Below, one piece after another: positions 15,299 to 46,500 of a stretch of DNA of 54,749 bases. The notes below the pieces were generated by a model. The model had not been told where the DNA came from, did no database searches, and saw only the letters and a list, made by a program, of their open reading frames with translations. Both the position numbers and the translations under genes were made by a program. This DNA comes from Candidatus Delongbacteria bacterium (GTDB lineage Bacteria > UBA4055), in NCBI GenBank assembly GCA_016937995.1, contig JAFGVM010000089.1, positions 1 through 54,749 of the forward strand. The letters are read 5' to 3'. Position 1 is the first letter of the stretch; every line of letters begins with the position of its first letter.

Positions 15299-18200
15299 TT
15301 GAAGATCTGGCATAGAATATTGTACTATCTTACGGTAACAGTTATCGTAGTTATTGCCGGATATGGGTTTTTTAAGAAAGTAATAATATCTCAGAAGATC
15401 AGATCAGTAATAATCGAAAGATTAAAACCCCAATTGAAAGCTGATGATTTTGATATCAGTTCCCTGGATATGCAGACTGATAAGATACATGTCAGAAATA
15501 TTAAATATGTAAAAGATAATTTAAGTGTCAAAATAGCTGATATCGAAATAGATTATTCTTTGATGAAACTGCTTACCAAGGGTATCAATTTTAAAGAATG
15601 GGTTGAAAATATAAGAATAAATTCTGTCAGGTTTGAGATCGACAGAAGTTTTGAAACATCTTCCAAACTAAATTGGGATTTTGATATAGATCAGTACAGT
15701 TCTATTCTGAGCCCGTTAAAAAATTATTCATACCTTGATACTATAGAAGTAAATGACCTGAATTTCAGTTTAAGATCTCAAAACAGTAACATTATCAATG
15801 TTTTTGAAAACCTTTCAGGCGGATTGATATTTGATAAAAAGGGGGGATTGGATGTTATTTTTGACGGAAAGTTACTAAGGTCTGAAAAAGAAAATATCTT
15901 CCTCAATGGAAAGCTGAATTACACATCCTTAAATTCCGAGTTTAACCTGAGTGTTGAAAAAAGTAGAATTCCGGAATTATCCAGCTTATTCGGGCAGTTT
16001 AAATCCGATTTTGGATTTTATGAAGGAAAACTTAATCTCGAAATTAACAAATACGGAAATAATCAAATATTTTTATTCGGTGATTTTAGACTGAATGATT
16101 TTGCAGGGGACATTTTTGACAAAGTTCGGCTAAGTAACGTAAATCTGCTGCTTTCTTATTACAACGGATCACTATTTTTTAATGAGTTCAACGGTTATGC
16201 TGATAAAATACCGTTTGAAGTTGAGGGTATGCTGTATAATGTGTTGAATCCACAGGGTGATATATATTTATCATTCAATTCTCTAAGCGACAAAGATATC
16301 AAAAAAACTGTTTCCAAGTTCGTTGAAGATACCGGTATGTTATATAAATTAGATTTTTATGATCAAAATACACTAATGCTTCATGCAAATTTTCAGGATT
16401 CAAAGATCTTTACTTATGTGGATATTATTTCACCCCGATTATCTATCAGAGATAAATTATTAGAGAACATAAAGCTGAGTGCTGTCTATAAAAAAGACAA
16501 GATATCGATCTCAAAATGCAGTTTTCTAACCAACAGTAATGCAGTAAATTTTTCAGGAAATTATTATATCACAGGGAACAAAAATGAATATTATGATCTT
16601 TCATTCAGCTTTACAGGATCAGTTTTTACCGAAATTCCTTTCCTGAAAACAACAAAAATAAGAAACGTGCCTACGATCCTGAAGGGAAAGATAAAAGGAC
16701 GTTCTTTTGATGATTATACAATGTCTGCAAGACTTGAGGCATTCGATTTTGAAAAAGATGAAAATGATCTGCTGTTTTACTCAAGTTTCGATATTGATGA
16801 TCAGATACTTATGTTCGAGATACACAGTAGTGAAGATATAACTATTGGTGACGGGTTTTACAATTTGAATACAAAGCAATACCGTTTTGATGGGAAAGAT
16901 CTGCTTAAACCGGTTAAATTACTTTATGGTAAAACTTTTATTGATAAGAATGAGATCATTAAGTTCGATTTAAGCGGTGATGATAAAGTTGTAAATGTTC
17001 ATACAAGTTCAGTCGAGAAAGGATCTTTGTTTTTTGGAGAGCTTAATGCAAAATTCAATATCGGTAAAGATTATGCTGAATCATTTGTGAATTGGGAGCC
17101 TGATCAGAAAAATATATACAGTAGGCCGGCTAATTTTAGATTGAATTTTTCAAGTGACAAGATCAATGTTTCAGATATTTACCTGGATTACAAACCTGTT
17201 TCTGGTGAAGCTTGGTTTGAATACAAATCTGAAAAAATAGGAGGTAAATTAAACGCCAAAGAACTTGAACTTGGAAGCATTTTAGGTTTTAGAGAATTTT
17301 CTTCAAATACTGATATTGATATAGCAATTTCAGGATACTCGCATTCTCCATACATAGATGTTAACATTAAAGAGAACGAGCTTATGTATTTTCCTGGAGA
17401 CAGTTTTGAAAGTATAAATTTAAAAGGTGAAGCTGAGATACATCTTGAAGGAAAGAAGATCAGGGTTGAAAAAATATTTCTGTATGACAAAAAAGATAAT
17501 AAAATTTGTACATTGTCAGGGAATATAAAAAATTTTAATGAGTACTCAGTTAATACCTATGGTGAATTGGATCTGGATATCCTATCAGCAATAACAGGCA
17601 GTAAAACCATAAGAGGTAAACTAAAGTACAAGATTGATAGTGAGGGAACAAAGGATCTGCCAAAGCTGAACAAATGCATAATAGACATCAAAGATACAGA
17701 TTTTTACGGTGATAAGATCGACAGAATGAAAATGGTCCTTACAGGAGCTGAGGACAAGGGTTTTTATCTTGAATTATTTCAACTTGATCTAAATAAATAT
17801 CTCAATTTAACAGCTGCGGGATTTATTCCTTACGATCAGGAGAAGGATATGCAGTTGACAGGTTATTTTCATGGAAACATTTTAGGATATTTAGATAATA
17901 AATTTGAACTTGTAGAGAACGGATACAGTGAAAATGAAGGCAGTTTTATAATCGGGGGAAGCATATTTAAACCCAAGATCGATGATCTGGAGTTATATTT
18001 CCTGGATGGCACTATGAACTTTAAGGATATAACCGGTAAACTGGAAGAAATTAGATCTAAGTTCGTAGTAAAAAATGGAAAAGATTTCGATATAGTACAA
18101 CTGTCATTAAATTGCAGTGAAACAGGGAACCGGGTACTGGTGGAAAATGTGCATAGAGATCAGACCTATAATGATATTATTGTTCCGGGTGGGTTTAATA

Positions 18201-20066: not shown

Positions 20067-21920
20067 TTACTTTTCCAGAAAGATCATAGAGTATATCGGT
20101 TTTTTAAATTCAAGTATAAAATTTCTGAATTCGTTGTATTTTTCAGGTTTAACTGTCATTTCAGGAATGTAAATAGTTCTAACCAAATTTATATTATTAC
20201 TACCATAAATAATTTCAAGTTGAACAAATGCTTTTGATCCTCCGCATTCGAACTCTTTCCTGAAATTATCCATATTTATGATCCTTGATTCAGTATCCGT
20301 TCTGATGCTGATCGTATCTTTATAATAGATTTTACTTTTTACAATATAATCATTTACCCTGTCTTTCAGAGAGACGTCAATACCAAGACCCGGATCCATA
20401 ATCTTAAAATAAGTATAATCTCCCTGGTCAACTATTCTATCTCGGTAAAGAATATTGAACGATATTTCCATCGGTTTATCCAGATCGTCAATATTCTTAA
20501 AGTCAGGTCCGGAAGTTATCTCAGCAGCTTTATCATTTAGTGAATACTGGGCGAAGTACATTTTTCTCTGTTCTTCAGGAAATCTTTTATACCAGCGGTT
20601 ATTCTGATCATCCGCTGCTTTTAATGACCATAATGTTTCCAGTTCGATATTCTGATCGATTAATTTATAATTGAAAACACGTGATCTTGTTATAGTCTCA
20701 GGATAATTATAATCTATTATTAGTTCTTTTTTATCAGGGGAGATCAAAGTATTTTCATAGTTTCCTGTAAATCCGTATACTCCATCAGAATTCCCGGGTG
20801 AAACAAGTGTGCCTTCATGATAGGCCTCAAGCTCATCAATGAACCAGTCCAGTGCCATTTTTTTTAATTCAGGGAACTCTTTATATGATCTGTTAAGCTT
20901 TAAAACCGGATAAACATTCTCTATCCCCTGTGATCTTAACAGAGCAATAAATAAAGCTGTGATATCTCTTACAGAACCATACTTTTGCTGGATTATCTTA
21001 TCCATCGGGTCTGGAGTAAAATCCATTTGAGTTATGAACGAGTTCTTTTTTTCATAATTACCTGCAAGGTATTTGTAAACAGCAGTGATCTTTTCATCCT
21101 CTTCTTTAATATCACCAATTATGTCTGCAGACAATTCTTTAACCTTGTCTGTGATCACAACCTCATTTATTTTCTTCAGGTTCATCAGGGAATATTCATT
21201 CCAGTCCTTGTAAAATGAAAAGACTAAAGGTTTGCCGCTTATCAGATAATCAGGTGAAGAAGGTTCTTCTTTGATCAGTGGAGAATTATTGATCGACCAG
21301 GATAATATGTTCTTACCGTTCTCAATTATCTTATCTAAGGAAATATCTTCATGATTCCAAATGTTGAGATCTAATTTTTCAGGATAGATAAGAGTTAGTT
21401 TTTTTATGATGTATGGGTTGCTTTCCTGAAAGTGAACGATCTGATTAACCGGCATTTTTCTTGTGTTAGTGATCTTATATTCAAGAGCAAGGTAATATCC
21501 GGGTTCTATTGCTGGAAAATTTATTACTTTCTTTCTGTCATTGATATATTCCGGTGATGAAACCGCATCACGTGTGTTCAGATCGTATATCTGATTTTCA
21601 GGAACTTCATGCTTTATTCCTTCGGGATCGATCGTCACTTTTGTTAATAATTCAACACTTTCATAGTCAGGATCGTATTCAACTGTTACATCGGAATAGC
21701 GCTTTTTGCCGGAGTAGTTCACTATCTTCTTTAAAAAGAATACATGCTTGGTAAAAGAATAATCTTCTTCCACATCAAAATTTACATCTGTAAAAATATT
21801 TACTGTTGTAGCATCTTCATAAACTTTATCATTGTCATACTGAGAAATCAGTTTATCAATATCGTAAGAGGCAAAAGTTATACCTGTGATTACCAATATG
21901 GTTAAAATTAACTTTTTCAT
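20067..21920 (-). CDS. exported DUF3857/transglutaminase-like protein without catalytic Cys
   Basis: A 617-residue protein with a signal peptide (MKKLILTILVITGITFA), a DUF3857-like beta domain (about residues 30-235) and a transglutaminase-like helical domain (about 255-345). It is a paralogue of its upstream neighbour: both have an xRDxxAL...LRxxGI helix. Here the segment reads YGSVRDITALFIALLRSQGI, with Val317 where the neighbour has the catalytic Cys of GGVCRDKAALLTAML, and no matching His-Asp pattern follows. It is therefore probably enzymatically dead, perhaps a binding or scaffold partner. ATG 21920 overlaps the upstream stop (ATGA) and has GGAGGTG just upstream, implying tight coupling. 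Confidence 0.8.
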   Translation of the reverse strand: MKKLILTILVITGITFASYDIDKLISQYDNDKVYEDATTVNIFTDVNFDVEEDYSFTKHVFFLKKIVNYSGKKRYSDVTVEYDPDYESVELLTKVTIDPEGIKHEVPENQIYDLNTRDAVSSPEYINDRKKVINFPAIEPGYYLALEYKITNTRKMPVNQIVHFQESNPYIIKKLTLIYPEKLDLNIWNHEDISLDKIIENGKNILSWSINNSPLIKEEPSSPDYLISGKPLVFSFYKDWNEYSLMNLKKINEVVITDKVKELSADIIGDIKEEDEKITAVYKYLAGNYEKKNSFITQMDFTPDPMDKIIQQKYGSVRDITALFIALLRSQGIENVYPVLKLNRSYKEFPELKKMALDWFIDELEAYHEGTLVSPGNSDGVYGFTGNYENTLISPDKKELIIDYNYPETITRSRVFNYKLIDQNIELETLWSLKAADDQNNRWYKRFPEEQRKMYFAQYSLNDKAAEITSGPDFKNIDDLDKPMEISFNILYRDRIVDQGDYTYFKIMDPGLGIDVSLKDRVNDYIVKSKIYYKDTISIRTDTESRIINMDNFRKEFECGGSKAFVQLEIIYGSNNINLVRTIYIPEMTVKPEKYNEFRNFILEFKKPIYSMIFLEK

Positions 21921-23857
21921 TTTACACCTCCTATTTTTCCGATCATATACAGATTACCGTATTTATCCAGTGAGGATAATTTGTTCTTAACAGCTAGATA
22001 ATCTTCTTTTTTAAAATGTATTTTGCTAGATTCAAAGTGATAATGTGCAGTTAAAACATTGTTCTCAAATTTATTTTCTATTTTTGTTTTAAACCCATGA
22101 AAATCAAGTTCATCAACCTTCGGGAATGAAATATTCTCGATCTCCTTATCCAGCTTGAGTGAGATGTAAGTATCTAAACTGTATGTCCCTCCCATTTTGA
22201 AGTCAAAATTCCTGGACTGTAACGAAAATGGACCCATGATACTTCTAAATAGAAAATGAATGTTCAATTTTGATACATCAAATGGTATAAATATGTGTTC
22301 CCTGGACATGTCAATAAAGTTGTTGATCTTCACCTTAAGTTCAACTTTCATATTCTTTTCTTTATTCTTCGGGTCAGTATAAGTCAATTCCAGTAGTTCA
22401 ATGCTCGGATTGATCTTTCCGAGCAATTTAGAAAAATAATTTTCAAGTTCATGGCCGGTATAATGGTCAAGAATTGATCTGAAGATCGTATCGCCCAGTC
22501 CTGTCATATCGTATTTGATATTTCCTTCAGCGATGTCGCCTTTTACAACAAGATCGATATTTGCGGTTGAATTATTATTCTCTGGAAGTGATACAGGTGT
22601 TGTTCTCAAAGTTTCACCTTTTTCACTTGCAATAAGATAGCTGTTATCCTCTTCGTACTTAGGCAGAAAATCCTTTGTGTTTTCATCTGTAGGATCAAAA
22701 ATAAATTCAGGTTCTCCCTTATCATCATAAGAAACTGTTATTGCATGATTGAACCAGACTATAGGAAATTCATGATTAAGTCTGCTTCCAGATGAAATAA
22801 GGATAACATCAGAACCAATACCGGCCAACCTCAACATTGCTGTTAAAAGAGCTGCTTTATCTCTGCAAACTCCACCTTTAGTCTCAAATGTATATGCTAC
22901 ATCATGCGGCTCAAATCCGGGACGGTTGGTTTCTTTATCTACTCCGAGATAACGGATCTTTCTTGCGACCCAGTAGAATAATTTTGCCGCTTTTTCCTTT
23001 CGTCCTTCAACTCCTTTTATTATTTCATCAACCTTTTTCTGCATTGCTTCGGTTGTATTCATATGAGGTTTAACAATATTGAAATACCATTTTGATATCT
23101 CTTCCCAGTTTTTAGCCGTTGTTATGCCATATTGATGAAGTATGAAATTTGTGTCCTCCATATATGGCTCATAAATAAGCTGCGTTGAGTTCTTATTGTT
23201 CCAAGTGTGTTTAGTCCTTCCGTCCCTTTCTTCTTTCTTGTATTCAAAATCATACTCTTTTTCGTTCTTATTTAATTCATAAATATACAATTGCTTCTCA
23301 GATGGTATGCTGATCTCCAAATAATCGTTTAAGTAGGACGAGAAGGTTTCTAAAGAATATGTTGTAAAAAAATTGTTCTCCATTACTCTTTTCTTGGCTA
23401 TATTCTTTGTTTTCTCGTAAAGGATATCTCCTATCTCAAGATCAGGAATATTACCGGTAAGATATTTACTTTGGTTTGAATAGATATTGCTCCATCCTGG
23501 AGGATCAGTTACTGTCAAGAATTTATCAGGATCAAATGTCACTACTTTCCCATCGGATTTTATAAGCTTGATCTCTTCGACTATCAGAGAATCATATATA
23601 AGATCTTTATAAAAAAACACTTCATTATTCCTTTTTCCTTCTTCGGTCAATATTTTTTTGTATGTTTCATCGATACTGTATCCCAGGCAGTCATTATTTA
23701 GATACTCGATCTTATTTACCAAATAAACTTCATGACTGTTCGGATAGTCTTGGGATTGAGCCTTTTGTAGCAGATCGATCGCCTGATCGAAAGGGATGTA
23801 ATCCGCATGGATTGTGGTCATCAAGACCCAAAGTAAGAATATCAGCAATTTTTTCAT
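21917..23857 (-). CDS. exported DUF3857/transglutaminase-like protein with intact catalytic residues
   Basis: A 646-residue protein with a signal peptide (MKKLLIFLLWVLMTTIHA), a DUF3857-type N-terminal domain (YKDLIYDSLIVEEIKLIKSDGKVV near residue 85) and a transglutaminase-like core. The papain-like triad is visible: Cys331 in GGVCRDKAALLTAML, His371 in WFNHAITVS and Asp388 in FIFDPTDE. It would act in the periplasm or at the surface. Substrates for this family are not established; cross-linking, amide hydrolysis and peptide cleavage are all known for the fold. The SD (AAAGGGG) is close to ATG 23857. It is the first gene of a coupled pair with its degenerate paralogue. Confidence 0.82.
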   Translation of the reverse strand: MKKLLIFLLWVLMTTIHADYIPFDQAIDLLQKAQSQDYPNSHEVYLVNKIEYLNNDCLGYSIDETYKKILTEEGKRNNEVFFYKDLIYDSLIVEEIKLIKSDGKVVTFDPDKFLTVTDPPGWSNIYSNQSKYLTGNIPDLEIGDILYEKTKNIAKKRVMENNFFTTYSLETFSSYLNDYLEISIPSEKQLYIYELNKNEKEYDFEYKKEERDGRTKHTWNNKNSTQLIYEPYMEDTNFILHQYGITTAKNWEEISKWYFNIVKPHMNTTEAMQKKVDEIIKGVEGRKEKAAKLFYWVARKIRYLGVDKETNRPGFEPHDVAYTFETKGGVCRDKAALLTAMLRLAGIGSDVILISSGSRLNHEFPIVWFNHAITVSYDDKGEPEFIFDPTDENTKDFLPKYEEDNSYLIASEKGETLRTTPVSLPENNNSTANIDLVVKGDIAEGNIKYDMTGLGDTIFRSILDHYTGHELENYFSKLLGKINPSIELLELTYTDPKNKEKNMKVELKVKINNFIDMSREHIFIPFDVSKLNIHFLFRSIMGPFSLQSRNFDFKMGGTYSLDTYISLKLDKEIENISFPKVDELDFHGFKTKIENKFENNVLTAHYHFESSKIHFKKEDYLAVKNKLSSLDKYGNLYMIGKIGGVK

Positions 23858-23876
23858 TTAGACCCCTTTTTACATA

Positions 23877-24305
23877 TTAATTTTCATCTACTTCTGAATT
23901 TCCGTTCATAATAACCAGTATTGATGCCGGTAGTATGTGGGCAAAATAAATCAGTGCAACGGTAAAAACAATATTTATTCTCATGTCTGTAATAGACAAT
24001 AGAAGCATGATCAATAATGCTATTATCGTAAAAATTGCATAGGACAATCTTAGTATTTTTCTAACTAAAATTAATTCTCTTTCGTCAAGATCTTTCACTG
24101 ATAAATGAACAAATCCCCACGCTTTAGTTTTGATGTATGCGAAATAAAAACTTATCGCAAATAATGTAATAAAGAAAACTTCTGAAGCAACGAACATCCA
24201 TGACCATTCAATATCCCTAAGATACTGGAAAGTAAATACTATGAATATCAGACCTAAGTAATTCATCAGCACAAAATGAATACTGTTCAGTTTTAAATTC
24301 TTCAC
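23877..24305 (-). CDS. four-helix membrane protein of unknown function
   Basis: 142 residues with about four transmembrane segments (near 12-27, 36-56, 87-108 and 112-132) and a charged central loop (SVKDLDERELILVRKILRL). The start is GTG 24305 with GGAG seven bases upstream. It lies downstream of a small XRE regulator on the same strand. Such regulator plus small membrane protein pairs are common, and the regulator often controls its partner. I do not recognise a specific family. Two hairpins separate it from the regulator gene. Confidence 0.7.
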   Translation of the reverse strand: MKNLKLNSIHFVLMNYLGLIFIVFTFQYLRDIEWSWMFVASEVFFITLFAISFYFAYIKTKAWGFVHLSVKDLDERELILVRKILRLSYAIFTIIALLIMLLLSITDMRINIVFTVALIYFAHILPASILVIMNGNSEVDEN

Positions 24306-24349
24306 TTTTTATCTCCTGTGTTTATATTAAGAATGGATTTTATTGTTCT

Positions 24350-24407
24350 CGTATGAAGGAAGGATGGAGGATCCTTCCCATACGATATGTCAGATCCAAT
24401 ATCTGAC
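24350..24407. repeat. two adjacent hairpins between the XRE and membrane-protein genes
   Basis: First hairpin: CGTATG...CATACG outer arms with GGAAGGAT/ATCCTTCC inside (24350-24384). Second: GTCAGAT/ATCTGAC with a five-base loop (24389-24407). Neither is followed by a T-run. They may attenuate or process the message so the two genes are expressed at different levels. Confidence 0.5.
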
Positions 24408-24423
24408 TGCTTTGCGTGAACGA

Positions 24424-24684
24424 TCAACTAATATCCTTGCGCATTCTCTCAAATACGATCTCACTTAACGGCTTCATTGGTTTAGGAGAAAATATGAACT
24501 CAATAGGTTTATTCAATACATCTGAGATACGGAAAGCTAGATCCAGGCTTGGATTATATTCTTCCCTCTCAAGATATCCGACAGTTTGAAAGTTAACTCC
24601 TATCTTATCTGCAAGCTCTCTTCTTGTCATACCAATTTCCTGCCGGAGAAATGATACTCTATTGTATAATTTTCTTGATATCAT
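24424..24684 (-). CDS. XRE-family HTH regulator (Cro/CI type)
   Basis: An 86-residue regulator. The helix-turn-helix FLRQEIGMTRRELADKIGVNFQTVGYLEREEYNPSLDLAFRI is the classic XRE pattern shared with small YozG-like regulators. ATG 24684 is preferred over the upstream TTG 24699, because TTG lies inside the predicted -10/operator region. The predicted transcription start falls on the A of this ATG, so the message may be leaderless; no SD is present. A palindrome over the -10 suggests autorepression. The membrane protein gene follows on the same strand. Confidence 0.82.
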   Translation of the reverse strand: MISRKLYNRVSFLRQEIGMTRRELADKIGVNFQTVGYLEREEYNPSLDLAFRISDVLNKPIEFIFSPKPMKPLSEIVFERMRKDIS

Positions 24685-24685
24685 G

Positions 24686-24699
24686 TTGTAAATATACAA
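24686..24699. promoter_or_regulatory. operator-like palindrome over the XRE promoter
   Basis: Perfect palindrome TTGTAAATATACAA spanning the -10. A related word TTGCATATT occurs at the -35 of the same promoter and again at 24769-24776 over the -10 of the divergent promoter. The shared word suggests one regulator binds all three, most simply the XRE protein encoded here. Confidence 0.55.
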
Positions 24700-24719
24700 T
24701 AAAAATAATAAATATGCAA
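24691..24719 (-). promoter_or_regulatory. promoter of the XRE gene
   Basis: Reading leftward, TTGCAT (24719-24714), 17 bases, TATATT (24696-24691). The seventh base after the -10 is the A of ATG 24684, predicting a leaderless transcript. Confidence 0.6.
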
Positions 24720-24749
24720 TATGATTCGCATTGTTATAGTATTATGAGC

Positions 24750-24778
24750 TTGACAAATAATTTATTTTTGCATATTCT
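24750..24778 (+). promoter_or_regulatory. promoter of the DUF5684-like gene
   Basis: Consensus TTGACA (24750-24755), 17 bases, TATTCT (24773-24778). The last spacer bases and the -10 form TTGCATATTC, which resembles the XRE operator word. Confidence 0.7.
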
Positions 24779-24818
24779 TTTGTAGTCATTTGTTAGAAAT
24801 AAAATATTGGAGGAGAAA

Positions 24819-25184
24819 ATGGGTAACGTGATATACGTTCTTGTAATTGTAGCTTTCGTTCTTTATGAATTGATAGCAATGTGGAAAGTTTTTGAGAAAG
24901 CAGGACAACCGGGGTGGGGCATATTTATACCTATCTATAACACTTACATAATGTTGAAAATTGCTGGAAGACCTGGTTGGTGGTTATTATTGTTCTTTGT
25001 GCCAATCGTTAACTTTGTGATAGCAATAATAATGATGGTTGATATTGCTAAGAATTTTGGTAAAAGCGGAATGTTCGCTCTTGGACTGATCTTACTTGGA
25101 TTCATTTTTTATCCGATCCTGGGATACGGAGATGCACAGTGGAATCCCGGTGGTGCACCTGAACCTACAGCTCCAATCGAGTAA
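24819..25184 (+). CDS. small membrane protein, DUF5684-like
   Basis: 121 residues with three to four transmembrane segments. The recurring loop pattern WKVFEKAGQPGWGIFIPIYNTYIMLKIAGRPGWWLLLFF is typical of DUF5684 proteins, whose function is unknown. The start is ATG 24819: GGAGGAG lies five bases upstream. The TTG at 24807 overlaps that SD and is rejected. It is monocistronic, with a clear promoter and terminator, and may be controlled by the divergent XRE protein. Confidence 0.8.
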   Translation: MGNVIYVLVIVAFVLYELIAMWKVFEKAGQPGWGIFIPIYNTYIMLKIAGRPGWWLLLFFVPIVNFVIAIIMMVDIAKNFGKSGMFALGLILLGFIFYPILGYGDAQWNPGGAPEPTAPIE

Positions 25185-26120: not shown

Positions 26121-27197
26121 ATGAACATATCAGCAAACCTTTTAAAATTCCGTAACGGAAAAATAATGAAGAACAGATTCATGCTGGCACCGATGACCAA
26201 TACTATGAGCTTTGAGAACGGACATCTGTCCGATGATGAATATAAATGGCTGACTATGAGGGCTGCAGGTCAGTTCGGTATGGTTATGACCTGTGCTTCA
26301 CATGTTAATGAGTTCGGAAAAGGCTTTCCGGGTCAGCTGGCAATTTATTCTGATGAATTCATTGAAGACCATAAAAGACTTGCTGCAGGAATAAAAGAAC
26401 ACGGCAGCCTAGCTGTAGTCCAGCTTCATCATGCAGGAATGAGATCTCCTAAGAAACTGATAGGAAGAGACCCTGTCGCTCCTTACGACAATGAAGAATA
26501 CGGGGCAGTTGCATTGACTTTAGAGGAGATCGCAGAGCTTAAAAATGATTTCATCGAAGCAGCTGTAAGGGCAGAAAAGTGTGGTTATGATGGTATTCAG
26601 GTCCATGGAGCTCATGGATATATTCTTACCCAGTTCCTTAACATTGATGAAAATAGAAGATCTGATGAATATGGTGGATCTATTGATAACAGAGGAAGGA
26701 TAATCTTTGAAATTCTGGAAGGTATCAGAGAAAAATGCAGTAAAGAATTCCTTGTCGGTATCAGAATTTCACCTGAAAGGTCGGGTATGGAGCTTTGTGA
26801 AGCTAAATATATCTGTCAAAAGATAATCGATCAGGGTTTTACAGACACACTCGATATTTCTCTCTGGGATTCTTTCAAATATCCTTATGATGAAAAATAT
26901 AGCGAGAAAACTCTTCTTGAGCACTTTCAGGAAATCGATTTCAAAGATGTTAAGTATTCTGTTGCAGGTAATGTACATACCGGTGAAGATGTAATTAAAG
27001 TTCTGGATACCGGTGTTGACTTTGTTGCAATTGGTCATTCCGGTATTCTTCATCATGATTTTCCGGCAAAAGTAATGGAAGATACTGAATTTAAACCTAT
27101 AGAACCTCCGGTAACACTTGATCATCTTAGAAACGAAGGTCTAGGACAGAAGTTTCTGGATTATATCTCCAGATGGCCGGATTTTATCAAAAAATAA
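26121..27197 (+). CDS. NADH:flavin oxidoreductase, old yellow enzyme family
   Basis: A 358-residue single-domain FMN enzyme with a TIM barrel. Diagnostic segments are FMLAPMTNTMS (residues ~23-33), VVQLHHAG (near 101-108), QVHGAHGYILTQFLNI followed by RRSDEYGGSIDNRGR (near 155-195), and a C-terminal phosphate-binding region VDFVAIGHSGILHH. Enzymes of this type reduce activated double bonds with NAD(P)H; the substrate cannot be told. No Fe-S or second flavin domain is fused, unlike 2,4-dienoyl-CoA reductase. ATG 26121 is preferred, with GGAG five bases upstream; ATG 26100 would add seven residues. The next gene starts 17 bases after the stop. Confidence 0.9.
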   Translation: MNISANLLKFRNGKIMKNRFMLAPMTNTMSFENGHLSDDEYKWLTMRAAGQFGMVMTCASHVNEFGKGFPGQLAIYSDEFIEDHKRLAAGIKEHGSLAVVQLHHAGMRSPKKLIGRDPVAPYDNEEYGAVALTLEEIAELKNDFIEAAVRAEKCGYDGIQVHGAHGYILTQFLNIDENRRSDEYGGSIDNRGRIIFEILEGIREKCSKEFLVGIRISPERSGMELCEAKYICQKIIDQGFTDTLDISLWDSFKYPYDEKYSEKTLLEHFQEIDFKDVKYSVAGNVHTGEDVIKVLDTGVDFVAIGHSGILHHDFPAKVMEDTEFKPIEPPVTLDHLRNEGLGQKFLDYISRWPDFIKK

Positions 27198-27214
27198 ATT
27201 TCTCAGGAGTTGTA

Positions 27215-28903
27215 ATGAAACTTTTCATCAATATTTTCCTAACTTTGACCTTAACTTTAAGCGCATCTGCATACAAGGTAACCTACGAGCAGTACAGTAA
27301 AGATAAAAAACAGGGAGATGATTTCAGTTTTACCTACAGTAGCGGGATAGCTTACCTGTCGGGAACTGAAGATAAGATCAGGTACTATACTGATTTTAAG
27401 GCAGAAGAAAATGTCAGTACGATAAAGTATGAAGAAATATTGTATAAAGATGTAACTCCTTTTGATTCTCTTCCGAAACCTGAATTCAGTGATAAATCCG
27501 AGACTATACTGGATTATGAATGTCAGTACGCATCATATATTTACTTTTCAAATAAGATAGAGGTTTGGTTCACTGAAAAAACAGAAGCTAAAGGTTCTCC
27601 ATACAGCAGATTTTTACCTAAACATGATGCCCTGGCTTTGAAGATAGTGATAAATGGAGACAGGAAGATCATCGCAAAATCTATAGAGAAACTTGATGAA
27701 TATACAGAGCAGAAATACAATGCAAAGGAAGCAAAACTGGTTACAAAGCCTGAATTCGATGAACTCAAGATCAACTCCAGATTTATAAAGGTAAAAGTTT
27801 TTGAAGAAGAAACTGTAAATTTTGACCCGGAGATAAAACCTGCACAGGATGAAGTTTTAAAAAATGATACGACTTATCATTTCTCTAAAGGATCTGTCGT
27901 TATGAAAAAGATCAAACTGACCGATGAGATGAAGAAAAATACAATGGTCTTTGCAAAACTGAGATGCAGATCAAATGGTGATGCCTATGACAGAACAGGA
28001 TCTGCATTTATTATACCTGTAAATGATAAAATTTCTGTTCTTGATGCTTACAAATTCGGTCTTGATACTTTACCGGTGAGTGAGGATAATAAAGACAGAA
28101 AATATCAGGGGATCGCAAGAACAGACAACTATGATCCTGTGATCGAGATAATACGTTTCATCACTTCTTTCGGTGCTGATCATTTTAATGAGAAAAATGA
28201 GATAAACAACTATGACTGGGAAGATGATGTGATCTACAAGCAGGAAATTTCTTCTCTTATACCGAATGATAAAGATGAGATGTGGGTCGGTGTCTTTGTA
28301 GGTAACTATGACAAAGGCGGTCACAAAGTAAGTCTAGATCTTGACTTTCATCCCGGCTACAGTGAAAATGACAGTATCAAGGTTAAAAAGTACATCCAAC
28401 CACTTTTTTCTACAGTGAATACTCTGGAAATGTCAGGTCAGAACTATGGAAAACTTTTTGATAACGATACTCTTAGAGTCGAATTTGAAATCTCAGAGAA
28501 AATTGAGGATATTAAACTATTATATACTACTACCGGTCATGGCGGCTGGGGTGGAGGAGATGAATTCAATCCAAAGCAGAATCAGGTTTTCATTGACGGT
28601 GTTAAAGTTTTCAAGATCTTTCCATGGAGAACTGACTGTGGTACATACAGGATGTATAATCCTGCATCGGGTAATTTCGGGAACGGGGTTTCTTCAAGCG
28701 ATCTGAGCAGATCTAACTGGTGCCCGGCTATGCTTACTCCACCTTATATTATCCCTCTTGATACTTTGAAACAGGGAAAACATACAATGGAGATCGTTAT
28801 TGATCAGGGAAAAGAGGATGGTAATGCATGGAACGTAACAGGTGTCCTTACCGGTCAAATTGAAACTAAGATAGATCCTGACAAGAAAGAACCAGCGAAG
28901 TAA
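27215..28903 (+). CDS. secreted PNGase F-like protein with N-terminal beta domain
   Basis: A 562-residue exported protein (signal peptide MKLFINIFLTLTLTLSASA). ATG 27215 has AGGAG five bases upstream; an upstream in-frame start would fall inside the previous gene. Residues ~20-200 form a beta-rich domain resembling GLPGLI-type proteins. From ~215 the two jelly-roll halves of PNGase F are recognisable: AYDRTGSAFII with Asp259, and GHGGWGGGDEF with Glu450 followed by WRTDCGTYRMYNPASG and SDLSRSNWCPAMLTPPY. In PNGase F, an Asp and a Glu at these places (D60, E206) support cleavage of N-glycans from Asn. Activity is plausible but the residue alignment is by eye. Confidence 0.78.
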   Translation: MKLFINIFLTLTLTLSASAYKVTYEQYSKDKKQGDDFSFTYSSGIAYLSGTEDKIRYYTDFKAEENVSTIKYEEILYKDVTPFDSLPKPEFSDKSETILDYECQYASYIYFSNKIEVWFTEKTEAKGSPYSRFLPKHDALALKIVINGDRKIIAKSIEKLDEYTEQKYNAKEAKLVTKPEFDELKINSRFIKVKVFEEETVNFDPEIKPAQDEVLKNDTTYHFSKGSVVMKKIKLTDEMKKNTMVFAKLRCRSNGDAYDRTGSAFIIPVNDKISVLDAYKFGLDTLPVSEDNKDRKYQGIARTDNYDPVIEIIRFITSFGADHFNEKNEINNYDWEDDVIYKQEISSLIPNDKDEMWVGVFVGNYDKGGHKVSLDLDFHPGYSENDSIKVKKYIQPLFSTVNTLEMSGQNYGKLFDNDTLRVEFEISEKIEDIKLLYTTTGHGGWGGGDEFNPKQNQVFIDGVKVFKIFPWRTDCGTYRMYNPASGNFGNGVSSSDLSRSNWCPAMLTPPYIIPLDTLKQGKHTMEIVIDQGKEDGNAWNVTGVLTGQIETKIDPDKKEPAK

Positions 28904-38493: not shown

Positions 38494-41400
38494 ATGTGGT
38501 ACCGAATGTCATTGAAAAGAATTTTCATATTATTTTTAATATTTGTCATTGTTTTGAATGCAGAAGATCTGGCTGATCGTATTAAGCAGTATAATGCAAA
38601 GCAGATCACTATGACAACAGCCCAGGAAATGAATATTGTGATCTCTGAGGATGGTCAGTCAATTTTATTTTCGTCTAACATGAACGGGAATTATGATATT
38701 TTCCGTAAAGATCTTATTTCAGAAGAGACAACTCAGATCACAGAAGCTCCGGGTAATGAATATCCACAATTTATTTATGATGATGATCTTTATTTTATAT
38801 CTGATGCTACAGACATCTACGGTAATATCTATCTTAGAGATCTGAAAGGTAAAAATGAGGAGATCATATATCTCAATAAAGGTGAAGAAAAGAATCCGGT
38901 CATCAATGAAAAAGCTATCATTTTTTCAAAAAAGACGGACAAGTATAGATTTTACAGCTTTGATATAAAAAAGAAGAAAGTTCAACTGATAAAAGGTGCT
39001 GAAGGTCGCAGGATCGTTTTCTCTTCAGACGGAAAACAAGCTGTGTTTGTTTCAAATAAAGATGAGAGCGGATACAATATTTTATATAAATGCAGTTATG
39101 AGAAAGGTTTATTCAAAGATGTCGAGCAGATTTCATTCGGGGCAATGATAATCAACGGAGTGGATATTTCGACTGATGGAAGTACAGTAGTATACTCAGC
39201 TATCAAGTCCGATACGGATAATAACGGCGTTATGAATATTAACGATAATTCAGTTCTCTATAAGATATCGTTTAACGGGAATGGAACAGTTCAATTCCAA
39301 TTAACACCTGAAAATTATTCATCTAAAGCACCGAAAATATCTTCTTCAGATAATATTTATTTCATTTCGGACAGGAGTGGTAATGATGATGTATGGATGT
39401 GCAATATTGATGGAGTTATCCCGAAAGAAGAAAATTATATGTCTCAAAGGTCTGTAGCAGATTTTTTATTTCAAGAGTTCAATGCTAAAAAAGTTTTGAA
39501 CGAGGGTTCAAGTATAAACTTAAAAGAAGAGAATGAGCTTCTGGATAAATCTTTACTGAGTTATAACAGGATACTATCACTTTTTTCAGCAGATAAAGAT
39601 AAACTGCTGGAAGTTTATTACAAAATGGCAGAGATCTATGAGATCCAGAAACAATTTGAAAAAGCAGAGTCGATCTACAGATTGATCCAGTCAAGATATA
39701 TTGATGATAAAAAAGTATCTGAAAAAGCCAATTTTTTTAAAAAGTTAACCGAGTTAAAAAGGAAAGGGATCAGAACTGACAGTTACGGATTCGAGCTGGA
39801 AGAACATATAAACAACCTGAAAGAGATGACCGTAAATTGTGAAGATGAAATTTTAGTTCAGAGTATTTATATCAGTATTGGAAAAATCTATTTCGACCTA
39901 GGTCAGTATTCAACGGCAAATAATTATTTTATCTCTGCAAGAGGAAAAGGGAATTCAGAATCTTACTACTGGCAGGCAAAAACAGCATTAGTATCAGGTA
40001 ATTCAAAATCAGCCGGATCCTTTCTTGAAAAAGCAATTGAAAGTACAAGTTCAAATGATCTGAAAGAAAAATACATTAGGGAATATTTTACATCGGGAGA
40101 GGATCTAGAGGGCAGAACTAAAAAGATCCGGAGTGTTCTATCAAACAAAGATCTTCCAAGTGAGATCAGATCTTACGGGAATTTGATCCTGGGTGATATG
40201 CTTGATAATATTGAGTTGAAACTTGAATACTATAATGTTGTAAAACAGTTTTATGTTGATGATCCTGAAAATATTTTAAAGAAAAAATTCTCTGCTGCTG
40301 CTGATCTTAAACTTGCCCGGCTATATACAGATAATCGTATGAACACAGAAGCAGAAGGTGTTTACAAATATTCAATAGACAATTATTCTGGAATAGATTA
40401 CGATTTTTATACGATCAATGCAGTAAAAGACCTGTCAAACCTATACCTGAATCAGGCTGATGAATATCTTAAAGCAGGAAAAAATGAAAATGCATTACTT
40501 ATTTACTATAAGGCTTTCGATCTGGATAGGGAGAATATTGTAACACTTCGGGGTATGGCAGATTCTTATAATTCTCTTGGAAAGATCGATGAGATAATAC
40601 GGTTCTTTACAGTTGAATATGAGAAGGATGTCAACAGCAGCTTTATGAACTATGCACTTGGATATGCCTATTCACTTAAAGCTATTAGCTCAAAAGAATA
40701 TCTCAGTCCACTGATAAATCTTTCAATAAATCTTATAGAGAGATCACTTGAACTGGAATCAAATAATAAATATGCATATCTGACATTAAGCTATGATTAT
40801 GAGGCATTATTCCATCTTAGGAATATTCAGGAAGATGAGATAAAGAAACAGAATATCTTGCTAAAGGGAGTTAATTACATTGTCGGTCCAGTGAAATTTT
40901 TACTTTCTACTATCAATCTGCTTGAAGATGATAATGTGGATTATCTTGATAAGACTATAAACACTTTGAACAAAGGTCTGGCAATAAGTAATATTATATC
41001 GGACAGGGATCTTTATCTCAAAATGACATTGAACCTTGCGAACAACTATTATAACCTCGGTGAATTCGGAAGGAAGAACGCTCTTGAAAAATATCAGGTC
41101 ATACTTGATAATGATTTCAAGTTCACTTCATTACAACAGAAAGCGATCATCTATGAAAAAATTGGGCACTGTCATTTCACACTTGGTAATGATGAGGCTG
41201 AGGAATACTATGAAAAAGCGATCGGGCTCTACAGATCATTGAACGATAGAGAGAGTGAGATCAGAGTATCAATGAGGAACGCATTATATTATTTGTCCAT
41301 GAAAGACAAAGAGGGAGACTTCATAGGAGGGTCAGATGCTTCTGAAAAGTATAATGATATTGTAGTGAAATTGAAAAGTGAAGGAAAGGATGATATTGTC

Positions 41401-44400
41401 AGGCTTCTTCAAAGGAACAGTGCATTTGCCCAGTTCATTGATGATGAATATGGAAAGAGTGCTGATATACTTCACGATCTACTGGCTGAATACAACAAAG
41501 ATGATCTAAGTTCAGAGAGCGAGGGTAATTACATAATTCTGACTTTACTTGGATTAGATATACCTGTATGGCAGCTGAACATAAGTCTGGGTTCAATGTA
41601 TCCTGAAGGGTTCAACAGTGACTCAGAGATCGCATTTCTATACTCACTTCAAGCTTCAAATTATTTCAAACTAAAAGATTTTTTCACTGTGGAAGAATTT
41701 TTGAATAAAAAGCTGGCATACTTCGAAGGTAAGAATAACAGACTTGCAGTCAGTCTTGTTCAAAACAGACTTGGAATGCTTTATTACTACAAAGGTGATT
41801 ACAGCAAAAGTATTTCACACTTTAAAAATTCCAATGAGATCTGTATTGATCTAGAACTTTACAATGTGATCATAACAAACAAGAACAATATTTTAAAAGC
41901 ATTAGCCAGGATCAAAAAAATTGATAGCAGGCTGATAGAAAAGTATAATATAGCGATATCAGATACTTCAACAAACTCCTTTCCTAAAGGAATTATTGAG
42001 AAATATCCCAAAGCTGTTAATCAAAACATCAAAGGTGTGCTAAAATACCGTATATCCAGATACTTAAGTAATTCTATTTCTCCTGCAGATCAGTATAAAA
42101 GCCTGACGTACCTTTTAAGCAGTGAAGAATATTTCTCGAGCGGGATAGCCATGCTCAAAGAGAAAAAGAAATTAAATAAGGATGAAAAAGTCTTACTATC
42201 CTCAATGCTATATAACAGAGCTGTGATAAATATTGAAACGGATGATAGAGTTTCGGCTAAACAATATATGGATGAAGGTATTAAACTTGCGGAAGAATCA
42301 GGAGACAGGCTTATTCTTTGGAGATTTTACATGAAATCCGGGGATCTCTCTGATAATGATCCGATAGAATTTTATTTGAAAGCTGAAAGAACATTGTCAG
42401 AATATCTTCCATCTACAGATGACTATGAGATGATCACAAGCTGGCAGGATGATATAAGACCGCTATATGACAGAATAATAAAGTATTATATATCGAAGAA
42501 ACAAATATCCCAGGCATTGAACTACTCTGAAAGATATAAGAAAAAAATGATGCTTGATTACTACTCAAGCAGATATCTCAGTTATAAAGAACAATTGCAT
42601 AAGATCCACATAACAAAGATCCGGTATAACACTACCGAGATCATAAGATATAATTCAGAAATTGACAGGCTGAAAAATAAAGATTCAGAGAAATATGCTG
42701 AAAAGATAAGTGATTATGAAGGGAAAGCAGACAGATATACCAAAGAATTAAAAGACATCTATAGCCAAATAAAGAACGATAATGATAACAGATTACTTCA
42801 ATTTGTTTCGATAGATGATATCGCTTTTGATGATATTGATGAAATACTGGATGAGGATAATGTTATAATATCTTTCTATTCCTTTGAAGATCAAACCTGT
42901 ATTTTCCTCAGAAATGATCTGTCAACAAGTTGTAAAATAGTAAAAAAGGATAATGAACTTTTAAATTCACTCAAGGATTATTTTAACGGGAATCCTGATA
43001 AGGATATCTATCTAAAAATATATGATCATTACATCAGACCTTTCGAGAAAGAGATAAGCGGGAAAGATCATGTGTATATCGTTCCCGATTTTGATGAAAC
43101 TGTAATGTTGCCTTTTGTTACTTCTGTGAACATGACCAATAAAGAAATTGAACCATCTTTCTCAAAATTACCTACAATTTCGTCACTTGGAATGATAGAT
43201 GAAAATAAAAATATCAACTACTCTGAGTTAAAGAATATATCAGAGATAAAAGAAATTTCCGAGGTTAAGAATTTATTTGAGAACGGTGGATTTATATATT
43301 TGGACAAATATTTAAACATAGGAAGCAAGAATTCTCTGGAAAATTATTTTAATGTCGGGAAAGATAATTTAAAGGTCAGTGAATTTCTAAAATATAAGAT
43401 CCCTGCATACGGGGTTTTGTTAAAAGGATTCGATAAATTTCCGGAACCAAGTGATTATTTCATGCTTGTGAACTCACTGATCTATTCTGGTGCTCAATCA
43501 ATAATACTGCCAATGGCAAAAACTTCAGGTAATGGAATAGACAGTCTGGTTATTAATTCTTTTAAAAAATTAGACGAGTATGATCTTGATGAAGTATTGG
43601 CTTCATGTAAAAGTGCAGGTTCCTGCGGAGATCTTGAAATATTCGGTTCAATTGGAATGAATGCAAGAGAGCAGACGAATTTTGCAAGTGATAATCTTCA
43701 AAATTTAGTGGTAAACGGGATCAGGAATTACAAAAGTACTGTCTATGAAAAAGCATCATCCTACTTTGCACAAGCTTTGTTGATGGCAAGAAAGATCAAA
43801 GACAAGAAGCAGGAATTAAATATTTTGGGCACTATAATTTCATCCTACTCAAACTTTAATGATTTTAAGAACGCAATAAAGTACGGAAAAGAACTTTTAG
43901 TTTTTGCGGAGCAAAATAATTTGGAAGAACAGATCATTAAAGCTTATGACAGTATTTCAAAGGATTATTTCAGGTCAGCAGATTATGACAGCAGTGCATC
44001 TTATCAGAATAAAATCCTTGATTACATTTCAGAGAATGATATTAAGCAGAAACTGAAAAGTTATAATATGCTTTCTTCAATATATGCAAGGAAAGGACAT
44101 TTTGAAAAAAGTATAAGCTATCAAAAAAAGTATCTTGAGACAGGTAGACTTATATCATCGGGTGAATTGGATTCATTAAGCAGTTCTCTCAACGTAAGAA
44201 GTTCTGAAGTTCTTTTCAATTCACTAAAATCGATATTGGTAAATTATTATAAGGCTGAAAAAATAGACTCAGCTTTAAGTGTCTACAATATTGTTAAGTC
44301 CAATTCAGAAATATTCAAGAGTATCCCTGGATCTTCTATGGCAGACCTGTTTGAATCGGTAGGGTTGTGTTATTTTAAGAAATCGTTCTATGGAAATGCT

Positions 44401-46500
44401 GAAGAATTCTATAAAAAATCACTTTCAATGGTCGAAAGTAACTCAGAAAAAGCTTCACTTTATCAAAATCTGGCTGACCTTTATTATAAATCAGATAAAC
44501 TTTCTCTCTCATTGAAAATGCTGTCAAATGCTGACATGCTTTTAAGTGACAGTGACAATGCGGGAAAGATGAAAATAAACAATACAAGAAGTCTAATTGA
44601 AGTAAAACTGGGCAATATACCATCAGCTTTAACATATTCTTATAATTCTCTTGAAAGGTCTATTGAGTCCAAGAATAAATTCGAGGAAAGTATTGCAAGG
44701 GTTAATCTTGCTAAGATACTTATTATGGCGAATGAGATCGATAAAGCCGAGATCAATCTGAAATTAAGTTCTCAGCTTGCAACTGAGACCAATAACAAGA
44801 GTGCGTTAATATCTTCTGAATTTTACAAGGGGATGATTCTTTCAGAGCATAAATTGAAATTTGATGAAGCATTAAATAAATTTGAGAATTCTTTGAAATT
44901 GTCTCAGGAGGGTTCTGATAAGTTCTTTGAAGCAAGATCCTTGTATCAGATCGGAATGATATACTATGATAAACAAAACACTGAAAACAGCTACTATTAT
45001 CTGGATCAATGTTCTCAATTAGCAGAGAAGTACGATATTAATGATATCTATTACATGTCTGAACGTAATATTGCTGAATTAAAATTCAAGAACGGTTCAC
45101 TGGACTTACAAAGATTGAATAAGGTTATTTCAAAGATCGAAGATGATATTTTATTCAGGTCGGAAAGTCCTCTTAATGTTTCTTTAATGATGATCGTGGA
45201 AAGGATCTATGATATTGCTGTTGCGGAGCTTTTTAAAAGAGGAGATATAAGTTCAGCTTTAACTATGATCCAAGAGAAAGATCATATAAGTGCACAAAAT
45301 GACATTAATTATTTCAGCTATGAAAGACATAATACTGTATTTAAGATCAAAGACAATATCAGAAAGCTTTACTCAGAAAAAATATCACTTAGATTGCAGG
45401 ATAAACCATATTCTCAAGTTGAAGGTCTGATATCAGCTGAGAAGCAAAAATATGAGAGTAGTGTAAAAAATACGGTCTACGATTATAAGAATAATATTTA
45501 TATGCTCAGTCAGTTGCAGAAAGGGTTGGGCAACGAAGATGTTATTCTCGTTTTTGCACCTTTCGATGAAGATTTAAATATCATTGTCATTTCAAACAAA
45601 ATCTCTACGGTTCAAAAAGGGAAATTAAAAGATACTTATACGGAGAATATTTTAGACCGGATCGAGAACAGATCTGATCTAAAGGAACAGGCAAAGTTGG
45701 CTTATAATGATATTTTTTCAGCACCGGTATTAAATATGATACAGGATAAAAAGGATTTATTTATTTACTCATCAGGCTCGTTAAAGAATTTCCCGTTCGA
45801 TCTGTTGTTCGACGGGCAAAAGCATCTCATAGAAAAATATAATATTTCAGAGATAAATACGATTTCGCCGGTCAAAGTCGAAGATTTCCAGTTTGCCAAA
45901 AGCATATCATTCGTGAATCCTTTCTCATCTGCTAGTGAACTGGTTTATGCAGATAGAGAGTACGAATCATTACAATGGGAAAATAAGAGTTCAAATTCAC
46001 TTATACAGAAAAATGCCACAGAGATCAATCTATACAACACTTTTAAAGATGATTATTCTTTGTACCACTTTCCAAATCATACCTATTCTCTGAGCAAAGA
46101 CTCAATGAACGTTTCAGGTATGACAAGTTATATCCAGCTTTCCGCCGACAGTAAAAATGACGGTAAATATTCATGGAACGAAATATTGAATAAATCTTAT
46201 ACTGATAAAGATATTATTCTGTCAGGATGTGACAGTGGTGGTAAAATGGGATTTGACCATTCTGCTTATTTTGATATTGCAGGAGCTTTTGAGATCTCTG
46301 GAGCAAAGAGTGTCGTTTCTAGCAGATGGAAGACAGATGATCTTGGTGCTGCTGTTCTGATGAAAAGGTATTTCAGGTATCTCGGTAATGGTTCCAGCAG
46401 GATCGAGGCTTTGAGTAACGCTAAGAGAGATGTGATCAAGTATTTTAATGATTATCCGTACTACTGGGCAGGTTTTAAACTGTCGGGACGTGTGTTTTAA
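38494..46500 (+). CDS. giant exported beta-propeller/TPR/CHAT-protease protein
   Basis: 2668 residues; ATG 38506 (four residues shorter) is an equally good start, and neither has a clear SD. A signal peptide (SLKRIFILFLIFVIVLNA) is followed by a TolB/PD40-like propeller (about 45-310; repeats such as ILFSSNMNGNYDIFRKD and NIYFISDRSGNDDVWMCN) and a long TPR array (~350-1340). A coiled coil leads to a CHAT-like domain lacking its dyad (~1440-1730), then a second TPR array (~1745-2290) and a C-terminal CHAT domain (~2345-2668). The last has the caspase-like dyad: His2529 in YHFPNHT and Cys2579 in ILSGCDSGG, plus SGAKSVVSSRW. CHAT domains are clan CD cysteine proteases regulated through repeat domains. 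Export means it would act in the periplasm or on the surface. No substrate gene is evident nearby. Confidence 0.85.
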   Translation: MWYRMSLKRIFILFLIFVIVLNAEDLADRIKQYNAKQITMTTAQEMNIVISEDGQSILFSSNMNGNYDIFRKDLISEETTQITEAPGNEYPQFIYDDDLYFISDATDIYGNIYLRDLKGKNEEIIYLNKGEEKNPVINEKAIIFSKKTDKYRFYSFDIKKKKVQLIKGAEGRRIVFSSDGKQAVFVSNKDESGYNILYKCSYEKGLFKDVEQISFGAMIINGVDISTDGSTVVYSAIKSDTDNNGVMNINDNSVLYKISFNGNGTVQFQLTPENYSSKAPKISSSDNIYFISDRSGNDDVWMCNIDGVIPKEENYMSQRSVADFLFQEFNAKKVLNEGSSINLKEENELLDKSLLSYNRILSLFSADKDKLLEVYYKMAEIYEIQKQFEKAESIYRLIQSRYIDDKKVSEKANFFKKLTELKRKGIRTDSYGFELEEHINNLKEMTVNCEDEILVQSIYISIGKIYFDLGQYSTANNYFISARGKGNSESYYWQAKTALVSGNSKSAGSFLEKAIESTSSNDLKEKYIREYFTSGEDLEGRTKKIRSVLSNKDLPSEIRSYGNLILGDMLDNIELKLEYYNVVKQFYVDDPENILKKKFSAAADLKLARLYTDNRMNTEAEGVYKYSIDNYSGIDYDFYTINAVKDLSNLYLNQADEYLKAGKNENALLIYYKAFDLDRENIVTLRGMADSYNSLGKIDEIIRFFTVEYEKDVNSSFMNYALGYAYSLKAISSKEYLSPLINLSINLIERSLELESNNKYAYLTLSYDYEALFHLRNIQEDEIKKQNILLKGVNYIVGPVKFLLSTINLLEDDNVDYLDKTINTLNKGLAISNIISDRDLYLKMTLNLANNYYNLGEFGRKNALEKYQVILDNDFKFTSLQQKAIIYEKIGHCHFTLGNDEAEEYYEKAIGLYRSLNDRESEIRVSMRNALYYLSMKDKEGDFIGGSDASEKYNDIVVKLKSEGKDDIVRLLQRNSAFAQFIDDEYGKSADILHDLLAEYNKDDLSSESEGNYIILTLLGLDIPVWQLNISLGSMYPEGFNSDSEIAFLYSLQASNYFKLKDFFTVEEFLNKKLAYFEGKNNRLAVSLVQNRLGMLYYYKGDYSKSISHFKNSNEICIDLELYNVIITNKNNILKALARIKKIDSRLIEKYNIAISDTSTNSFPKGIIEKYPKAVNQNIKGVLKYRISRYLSNSISPADQYKSLTYLLSSEEYFSSGIAMLKEKKKLNKDEKVLLSSMLYNRAVINIETDDRVSAKQYMDEGIKLAEESGDRLILWRFYMKSGDLSDNDPIEFYLKAERTLSEYLPSTDDYEMITSWQDDIRPLYDRIIKYYISKKQISQALNYSERYKKKMMLDYYSSRYLSYKEQLHKIHITKIRYNTTEIIRYNSEIDRLKNKDSEKYAEKISDYEGKADRYTKELKDIYSQIKNDNDNRLLQFVSIDDIAFDDIDEILDEDNVIISFYSFEDQTCIFLRNDLSTSCKIVKKDNELLNSLKDYFNGNPDKDIYLKIYDHYIRPFEKEISGKDHVYIVPDFDETVMLPFVTSVNMTNKEIEPSFSKLPTISSLGMIDENKNINYSELKNISEIKEISEVKNLFENGGFIYLDKYLNIGSKNSLENYFNVGKDNLKVSEFLKYKIPAYGVLLKGFDKFPEPSDYFMLVNSLIYSGAQSIILPMAKTSGNGIDSLVINSFKKLDEYDLDEVLASCKSAGSCGDLEIFGSIGMNAREQTNFASDNLQNLVVNGIRNYKSTVYEKASSYFAQALLMARKIKDKKQELNILGTIISSYSNFNDFKNAIKYGKELLVFAEQNNLEEQIIKAYDSISKDYFRSADYDSSASYQNKILDYISENDIKQKLKSYNMLSSIYARKGHFEKSISYQKKYLETGRLISSGELDSLSSSLNVRSSEVLFNSLKSILVNYYKAEKIDSALSVYNIVKSNSEIFKSIPGSSMADLFESVGLCYFKKSFYGNAEEFYKKSLSMVESNSEKASLYQNLADLYYKSDKLSLSLKMLSNADMLLSDSDNAGKMKINNTRSLIEVKLGNIPSALTYSYNSLERSIESKNKFEESIARVNLAKILIMANEIDKAEINLKLSSQLATETNNKSALISSEFYKGMILSEHKLKFDEALNKFENSLKLSQEGSDKFFEARSLYQIGMIYYDKQNTENSYYYLDQCSQLAEKYDINDIYYMSERNIAELKFKNGSLDLQRLNKVISKIEDDILFRSESPLNVSLMMIVERIYDIAVAELFKRGDISSALTMIQEKDHISAQNDINYFSYERHNTVFKIKDNIRKLYSEKISLRLQDKPYSQVEGLISAEKQKYESSVKNTVYDYKNNIYMLSQLQKGLGNEDVILVFAPFDEDLNIIVISNKISTVQKGKLKDTYTENILDRIENRSDLKEQAKLAYNDIFSAPVLNMIQDKKDLFIYSSGSLKNFPFDLLFDGQKHLIEKYNISEINTISPVKVEDFQFAKSISFVNPFSSASELVYADREYESLQWENKSSNSLIQKNATEINLYNTFKDDYSLYHFPNHTYSLSKDSMNVSGMTSYIQLSADSKNDGKYSWNEILNKSYTDKDIILSGCDSGGKMGFDHSAYFDIAGAFEISGAKSVVSSRWKTDDLGAAVLMKRYFRYLGNGSSRIEALSNAKRDVIKYFNDYPYYWAGFKLSGRVF

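Follow-up and report, generated by a model that had tools for sequence, protein, structure and literature searches.

What is known of gated caspase-like proteases comes mainly from intracellular immunity and from mitosis. The locus described here raises the question of what a protein of this kind might do when it is exported, and why it would carry two CHAT modules of which one is dead. The gene lies in a 54,749-nucleotide stretch from a Candidatus Delongbacteria bacterium, which we refer to as the window.

Architecture and spread of the giant protein

The giant ORF, whose product is denoted P0001, is a single unbroken ATG frame, and its features are the following.

38494..46500, + strand: giant propeller-TPR-pseudoCHAT-TPR-CHAT gene, 2668 aa; homologues in 13/13 genomes examined of the window's phylum
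38494..38562, + strand: N-terminal signal-peptide-like segment, residues 1-23 (hydropathy rule; conserved in relatives, lipobox in some)
38599..39423, + strand: TolB-like (PD40) beta-propeller, residues about 36-310 (PD40 matches, partial TolB profile)
39511..42453, + strand: first TPR array, residues about 340-1320 (TPR_12/TPR_8/TPR_19 matches)
40456..42063, + strand: TPR1 core, residues 655-1190 (strong cross-phylum conservation; served as search profile)
42466..42813, + strand: long helical hairpin ahead of the middle module, residues 1325-1440 (AlphaFold secondary structure; strongly conserved)
42811..43683, + strand: dead CHAT (pseudo-CHAT) module, residues 1440-1730 (model, Foldseek, profile comparison, residue counts)
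43711..45273, + strand: second TPR array, residues about 1740-2260 (TPR_12, best stretch 1949-2010)
45487..46497, + strand: C-terminal CHAT domain, residues 2332-2668 (PF12770, Foldseek)
46078..46080, + strand: codon of His2529, predicted catalytic
46228..46230, + strand: codon of Cys2579, predicted catalytic nucleophile

Pfam analysis of P0001 identified one CHAT domain (PF12770, residues 2405-2665, 109.6 bits against a curated cut-off of 24), together with PD40 and many TPR families. The PD40 match has an E value of 4.9e-12 with the whole protein and 2.6e-14 with the N-terminal 450 aa, and the NCBIfam TolB profile matches partially, over the propeller only, with 40 bits against a cut-off of 343, which falls short of a full TolB assignment. 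By hydropathy, the signal-like segment, for which Met5 is a possible alternative start, is the sole transmembrane-like stretch of the protein. The exported architecture of a propeller, two TPR arrays and two CHAT-like modules that the original prediction had read from the sequence is thus borne out by Pfam, AlphaFold/Foldseek, profile comparisons and the hydropathy rule, and when checked on the translation, His2529, Cys2579 and the three middle-module segments (YLDKYLNI at 1602, GVLLKGFDKF at 1640 and YSGAQSIILPMA at 1664) lie where it had placed them. The cross-phylum family, the DUF1318/AsmA gene context and the Csx29 pair of pseudo-CHAT and active CHAT, all described below, were not part of that prediction.

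Distant homologues, sought with a profile of the TPR1 core, are mostly encoded by frames of roughly 2300-2960 aa. The phylum of genome G332 has matches in 64 of 82 genomes, some 50 of which are strong and in long frames, and in the phylum of G304 matches occur in 44/77 genomes, about 37 strongly, both strong counts having been read from the match lists. The phylum of G132 adds matches in 7 of 14 genomes. The giant is also present in families f115, f52, f244, f24, f105 and f91, which fall outside the phyla of the window, G332, G304 and G132; thus, at least five phyla carry it. PD40 was detected in 22/24 family N termini, and a signal-like N terminus, assigned by a simple hydropathy rule rather than SignalP, in 49 of 57 members, some of which have a lipobox.

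The window's genome contains a second CHAT match (G000:C28, about 21815-25057; L031:4816-8058), which belongs to a different gene. This gene encodes an exported protein of 1080 aa combining a WD40 propeller with a caspase-type protease, and lpxC/fabZ-like and lpxA-like envelope genes are located within a few kb of it.

The middle module is a CHAT fold that has lost the catalytic dyad

Comparisons confined to P0001 or to its phylum give weak signals for the middle module. BLASTP of the two modules of P0001 yields an E value of 0.012 over 49 residues, phylum-only profiles of the two modules (13 and 11 sequences) match with E 0.059, and Pfam and PDB sequence searches with such phylum-only profiles returned no useful match. 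A PF12770 search, the route that the original prediction had suggested, finds the C-terminal domain as the sole CHAT of P0001 and misses its middle module, though it matches the middle module of 5 of 20 relatives (best 8e-33). Structure and cross-phylum profiles are far more informative. The AlphaFold model of the middle module, built with 13 aligned homologues, has a pLDDT of 84.9 and a pTM of 0.84, and its best PDB matches in Foldseek are Craspase TPR-CHAT (E 1e-10), followed by axonemal central-pair proteins and separase (E 7e-5). The model of the C-terminal domain (pLDDT 73.3) matches Craspase (E 2e-13) and separase (E 2e-9), and also DdvA, SAVED-CHAT and gingipain. When 20-sequence cross-phylum profiles of the two modules were aligned with hhalign, they matched over ~275 columns with probabilities of 99.6-99.7 and E values of 4e-24 to 2e-25; the score of 182 compares with a top score of 19.6 among 60 column-shuffled profiles. 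Outside Delongbacteria, an HMM of the C-terminal domain recognizes the middle module of most members directly, with up to 157 bits. Thus, while single-sequence and phylum-only comparisons are too weak to establish homology, structure and cross-phylum profiles together make the case solid: the middle module has a caspase/CHAT fold, as had been predicted. By sequence, the C-terminal profile matches Craspase and DdvA with E about 1e-9, and separase weakly, with E about 0.03. The axonemal central-pair matches to the dead CHAT fold (7n6g_1N and 9ijj) suggest, as a separate observation, that pseudo-CHAT scaffolds occur in eukaryotic cilia.

Residues were compared in 58 family members, of which 56 C-terminal domains and 57 middle modules could be scored. 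The C-terminal His-Cys dyad is invariant in the 11 phylum sequences and complete in 53/56 family-wide, and near-invariant residues besides the dyad are S2577, E2489, W2612, D2616, P2655 and W2658. With the CHAT fold of the middle module established and the C-terminal dyad conserved, the original prediction withstood both of the checks that could have refuted it. By contrast, the dyad Cys is present in none of the 57 middle modules and the His in two. Tyr1606 sits at the catalytic-His position of the middle module and nothing aligned to Cys2579 is a cysteine, consistent with the original claim that both residues are missing. In what it conserves best, the middle module is mainly structural: glycines, prolines and leucines predominate, e.g., G1666 and G1718, and there is no alternative catalytic set.

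The live site has also been lost in a few members. In G116, G428 and G430 (L116, L175 and L176) the dyad is gone from the C-terminal CHAT, which leaves these proteins with no predicted catalytic site, and a short natural form in G057 (L080:2861-8308, 1815 aa) stops after the dead CHAT and lacks the second TPR-CHAT half. These four members, in which no CHAT module has an intact dyad, are nonetheless long open genes, indicating that proteolysis is not always required.

Between the window's genome (G000) and G002, pN is 0.124 for the middle module, 0.094 for the C-terminal domain and 0.185 for the propeller, and dN/dS is about 0.05 in both CHATs, a rough value because dS is near saturation. The middle module is thus close to the live domain by both measures, which indicates that it is retained under constraint. 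The original prediction had proposed that the dead domain became a regulator or substrate-docking site; its retention as a constrained part is what these data bear out, and a regulatory or docking role would fit with it. In the tree, which contains long branches, all middle modules group with the short G057 form as a single clan (98%), apart from every C-terminal CHAT and from the outside CHATs. Together with the constraint on the module, this clan indicates that the dead state is ancestral and argues for a single ancient origin of that state.

How the module arose is less clear-cut. The original prediction invoked internal duplication of a TPR+CHAT unit, which the tree falls short of proving: it does not join the two halves as sister groups, and some of its branches are long. 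The same tree, with its middle clan set apart from all live CHATs, could reflect separate acquisition of a CHAT-fold domain that was perhaps never catalytic in this lineage and so is not a decayed tandem copy. We consider this origin possible and somewhat doubtful, since the middle module is still recognized as Pfam CHAT in five relatives and keeps the His in two, as if an active ancestral domain had decayed, and a TPR array precedes both modules. Separate acquisition would be compatible with the functional reading that we favor below, as it concerns origin only.

Gene neighborhood and the DUF1318/AsmA link

In the window, sodium-pumping decarboxylase subunit genes lie upstream of the giant, with a histidine kinase gene and metabolic genes also nearby. 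Among its neighbors in the window and in Delongbacteria relatives we found no obvious partner gene; valS, the apparent operon partner upstream in several of these relatives, was rejected as a functional partner. Elsewhere in the window, the gene at 27173-28903 encodes both PNGase F domains (N-glycanase_N and N-glycanase_C), a deglycosylase unexpected in Delongbacteria, a 1390-aa ORF with zero Pfam matches lies downstream of an RND efflux system (15299-19471), and 20067-23857 (- strand) holds a tandem pair of DUF3857-transglutaminase genes. In G002, which is of the same genus, a gene for a CAP12/Pycsar-type TIR protein (L029:7858-8625) is located just downstream of the giant.

The survey of conserved neighbors that had been proposed is more rewarding in other phyla, where a DUF1318 gene (YdbL family, PF07027) is found upstream of the giant on the same strand, preceded in many cases by an AsmA-like gene (PF05170). 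In the phylum of G332, DUF1318 occupies this position in 20 of the 22 loci examined, 17 of them within about 510 bp, and the AsmA-like gene precedes it in 14/22; of the two exceptions, the G422 locus runs off its contig and the DUF1318 gene of G460 is elsewhere. Five further loci with DUF1318 upstream come from outside this phylum (G346, G263, G126, G035 and G205). Neither DUF1318 nor AsmA adjoins the giant in Delongbacteria, including the window, or in the phylum of G304. In the non-adjacent cases, one DUF1318 gene is still present in nearly every giant-bearing genome. The window's genome has its single DUF1318 gene at G000:C67 (L214:8162-9446), directly after dapB and overlapping its end, and its one AsmA match is located away from the giant locus. 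The large gene beside DUF1318 in Delongbacteria was considered as an AsmA candidate and rejected, as it encodes a kinase with an NTPase-like part.

DUF1318 and the giant also co-occur across genomes. Of 35 genomes with the giant, 33 have DUF1318, against 3 of 48 without it (Fisher p 3e-17, not corrected for phylogeny). The 48 giant-less genomes, whose status was set by profile thresholds, include members of the same phyla, and giant-less members of giant-bearing phyla mostly lack DUF1318 too. Since DUF1318 also turns up where the giant is absent (E. coli, Caulobacter; 3 of 48 tested), the partnership is not an obligate one. The ydbH-ynbE-ydbL locus of E. coli serves outer-membrane lipid homeostasis through its AsmA-like member YdbH (PMC8593681). 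In many bacteria the giant thus adjoins relatives of an outer-membrane lipid-transport operon, and it may contribute to envelope maintenance in a way that has been overlooked.

Proposed function and relation to known systems

The examples of Csx29, LbcA-CtpA and PG1058, which are compared below, lead us to propose a gated envelope endopeptidase with a structural or docking pseudo-CHAT in an AsmA-YdbL setting. Our preferred reading, which we put forward tentatively, is that the giant is a self-contained protease of the separase/Craspase type, gated and exported to the envelope, with the pseudo-CHAT as a fixed part, and that it probably acts in outer-membrane maintenance. The propeller and first TPR array would form a binding scaffold. 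The middle CHAT, whose catalytic site was already dead when the gene was acquired or inherited by these phyla, would be a fixed element with a structural or regulatory role, either docking partners or holding the second TPR array. The C-terminal CHAT would be a His-Cys endopeptidase, probably latent in the periplasm until the scaffold senses a signal, and once activated may cut one or a few envelope proteins. The setting would probably be outer-membrane maintenance alongside the YdbL-family protein and the AsmA-like lipid-transport bridge. In a bolder version, several phyla would share a widespread and hitherto undescribed envelope proteolysis system: a separase-like giant of the periplasm, carrying the ancestral pseudo-CHAT, would work with a YdbL-family lipoprotein and the AsmA-like bridge and thereby control how phospholipids reach the outer membrane. 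This version strikes us as doubtful.

The chief rival holds that the giant is a pure scaffold or assembly factor that organizes an envelope complex, e.g., the AsmA-YdbL bridge or another outer-membrane machine, with a C-terminal CHAT that mainly binds and proteolysis that is minor or self-directed. It would account well for the four members with no intact dyad and for the first TPR array being among the best conserved parts of the protein, and TPR and propeller scaffolds are known in envelope machines such as PG1058 of the type IX system (PMC5053529). It explains less readily why the dyad and its surroundings are kept in 53/56 members over several phyla when the other module has lost the same residues, and we regard it as unlikely, if still the rival to be taken most seriously. 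We give a much lower probability to envelope-to-transcription signaling, in which cleavage or a conformational change would free a sigma/anti-sigma pair as in DdvA or Csx29-Csx30-sigma. By both fold and sequence, DdvA (8rot) ranks with the nearest relatives of solved structure, and Csx30, which is cut by Craspase, binds a sigma factor (PMC10028731); however, P0001 has no transmembrane stretch beyond its signal segment, no anti-sigma domain was found in it, and there is no sigma factor gene among the scanned window neighbors. Least probable of all, and very much so, is a role in defense or programmed death, with a gasdermin-like or other death substrate as the target. Bacterial TPR-CHAT proteases do include conflict effectors, with cleavage of gasdermin cited in PMC9729208, whereas the giant is present in 13/13 genomes of its phylum, carries an export signal, sits among housekeeping neighbors and yields only a generic TPR match in PADLOC. 

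CHAT proteases, pairs of pseudo and active CHATs and a membrane-associated CHAT protein (DdvA) are already known. For an exported protein built with two TPR arrays and two CHATs, for its occurrence across phyla and for the link to DUF1318/AsmA, we found no description in the open-access literature, to which the search was limited, subscription papers not being covered. Conserved in several phyla and linked to AsmA/YdbL genes, this exported protein with one live and one ancestrally dead CHAT is a concrete candidate for joining the regulation of AsmA-bridge lipid traffic with gated caspase-like proteases. Because the dead state is universal and the live site, too, is missing from a few members, the family also provides a natural test of why pseudoproteases are kept.

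Each known system shares part of this arrangement. The AsmA-like and DUF1318 genes that adjoin the giant in most loci of the G332 phylum and several others recall E. coli YdbH-YnbE-YdbL, although no CHAT protein belongs to that locus in the form named in PMC8593681. The window, for its part, lacks an AsmA/DUF1318 neighborhood. In Pseudomonas aeruginosa, the TPR lipoprotein LbcA realigns the catalytic residues of the envelope protease CtpA and thereby activates it (PMC11021448), but there two proteins are involved and the protease family is unrelated. PG1058 is a periplasmic protein with an outer-membrane anchor that has both TPR and a TolB-like PD40 propeller (PMC5053529) and, unlike the giant, carries CRD and OmpA_C domains and no CHAT. 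DdvA (PDB 8rot/8rw5) is a membrane-associated CHAT protein that matches the C-terminal domain of the giant with E 1.5e-9; it is titled a transmembrane anti-sigma factor, is 991 aa long and has one CHAT match, and hydropathy shows no internal transmembrane segment of the DdvA type in P0001. Its presence among both the Foldseek and the sequence matches shows that envelope CHAT proteins have precedent, and the original statement that CHAT proteases are mostly cytoplasmic needs this caveat.

Eukaryotic separase, in which a non-catalytic caspase-like lobe lies beside the active one, resembles the giant in joining a helical-repeat N terminus to such a protease (fold E 7e-5 to 2e-9), but it is an intracellular cohesin protease, and its similarity by sequence is weak. 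The best structural match for both modules is Craspase TPR-CHAT/Csx29 of type III-E CRISPR, where a TPR array is likewise followed by a pseudo and an active His-Cys CHAT. Csx29 is a single-site endopeptidase that resembles separase and consists of a pseudo-caspase CHAT1 and an active CHAT2 with TPR-borne allosteric gating (PMC10028731). Among the window ORFs scanned with Pfam, there are no genes for Cas7-11/gRAMP, Csx30 or other CRISPR effectors. Unlike the giant, Csx29 is about 700 aa long, is bound to Cas7-11 and has its dead and live parts as adjacent lobes, whereas the giant places a second TPR array of ~500 residues between two full CHAT modules and adds an N-terminal export signal and a propeller.
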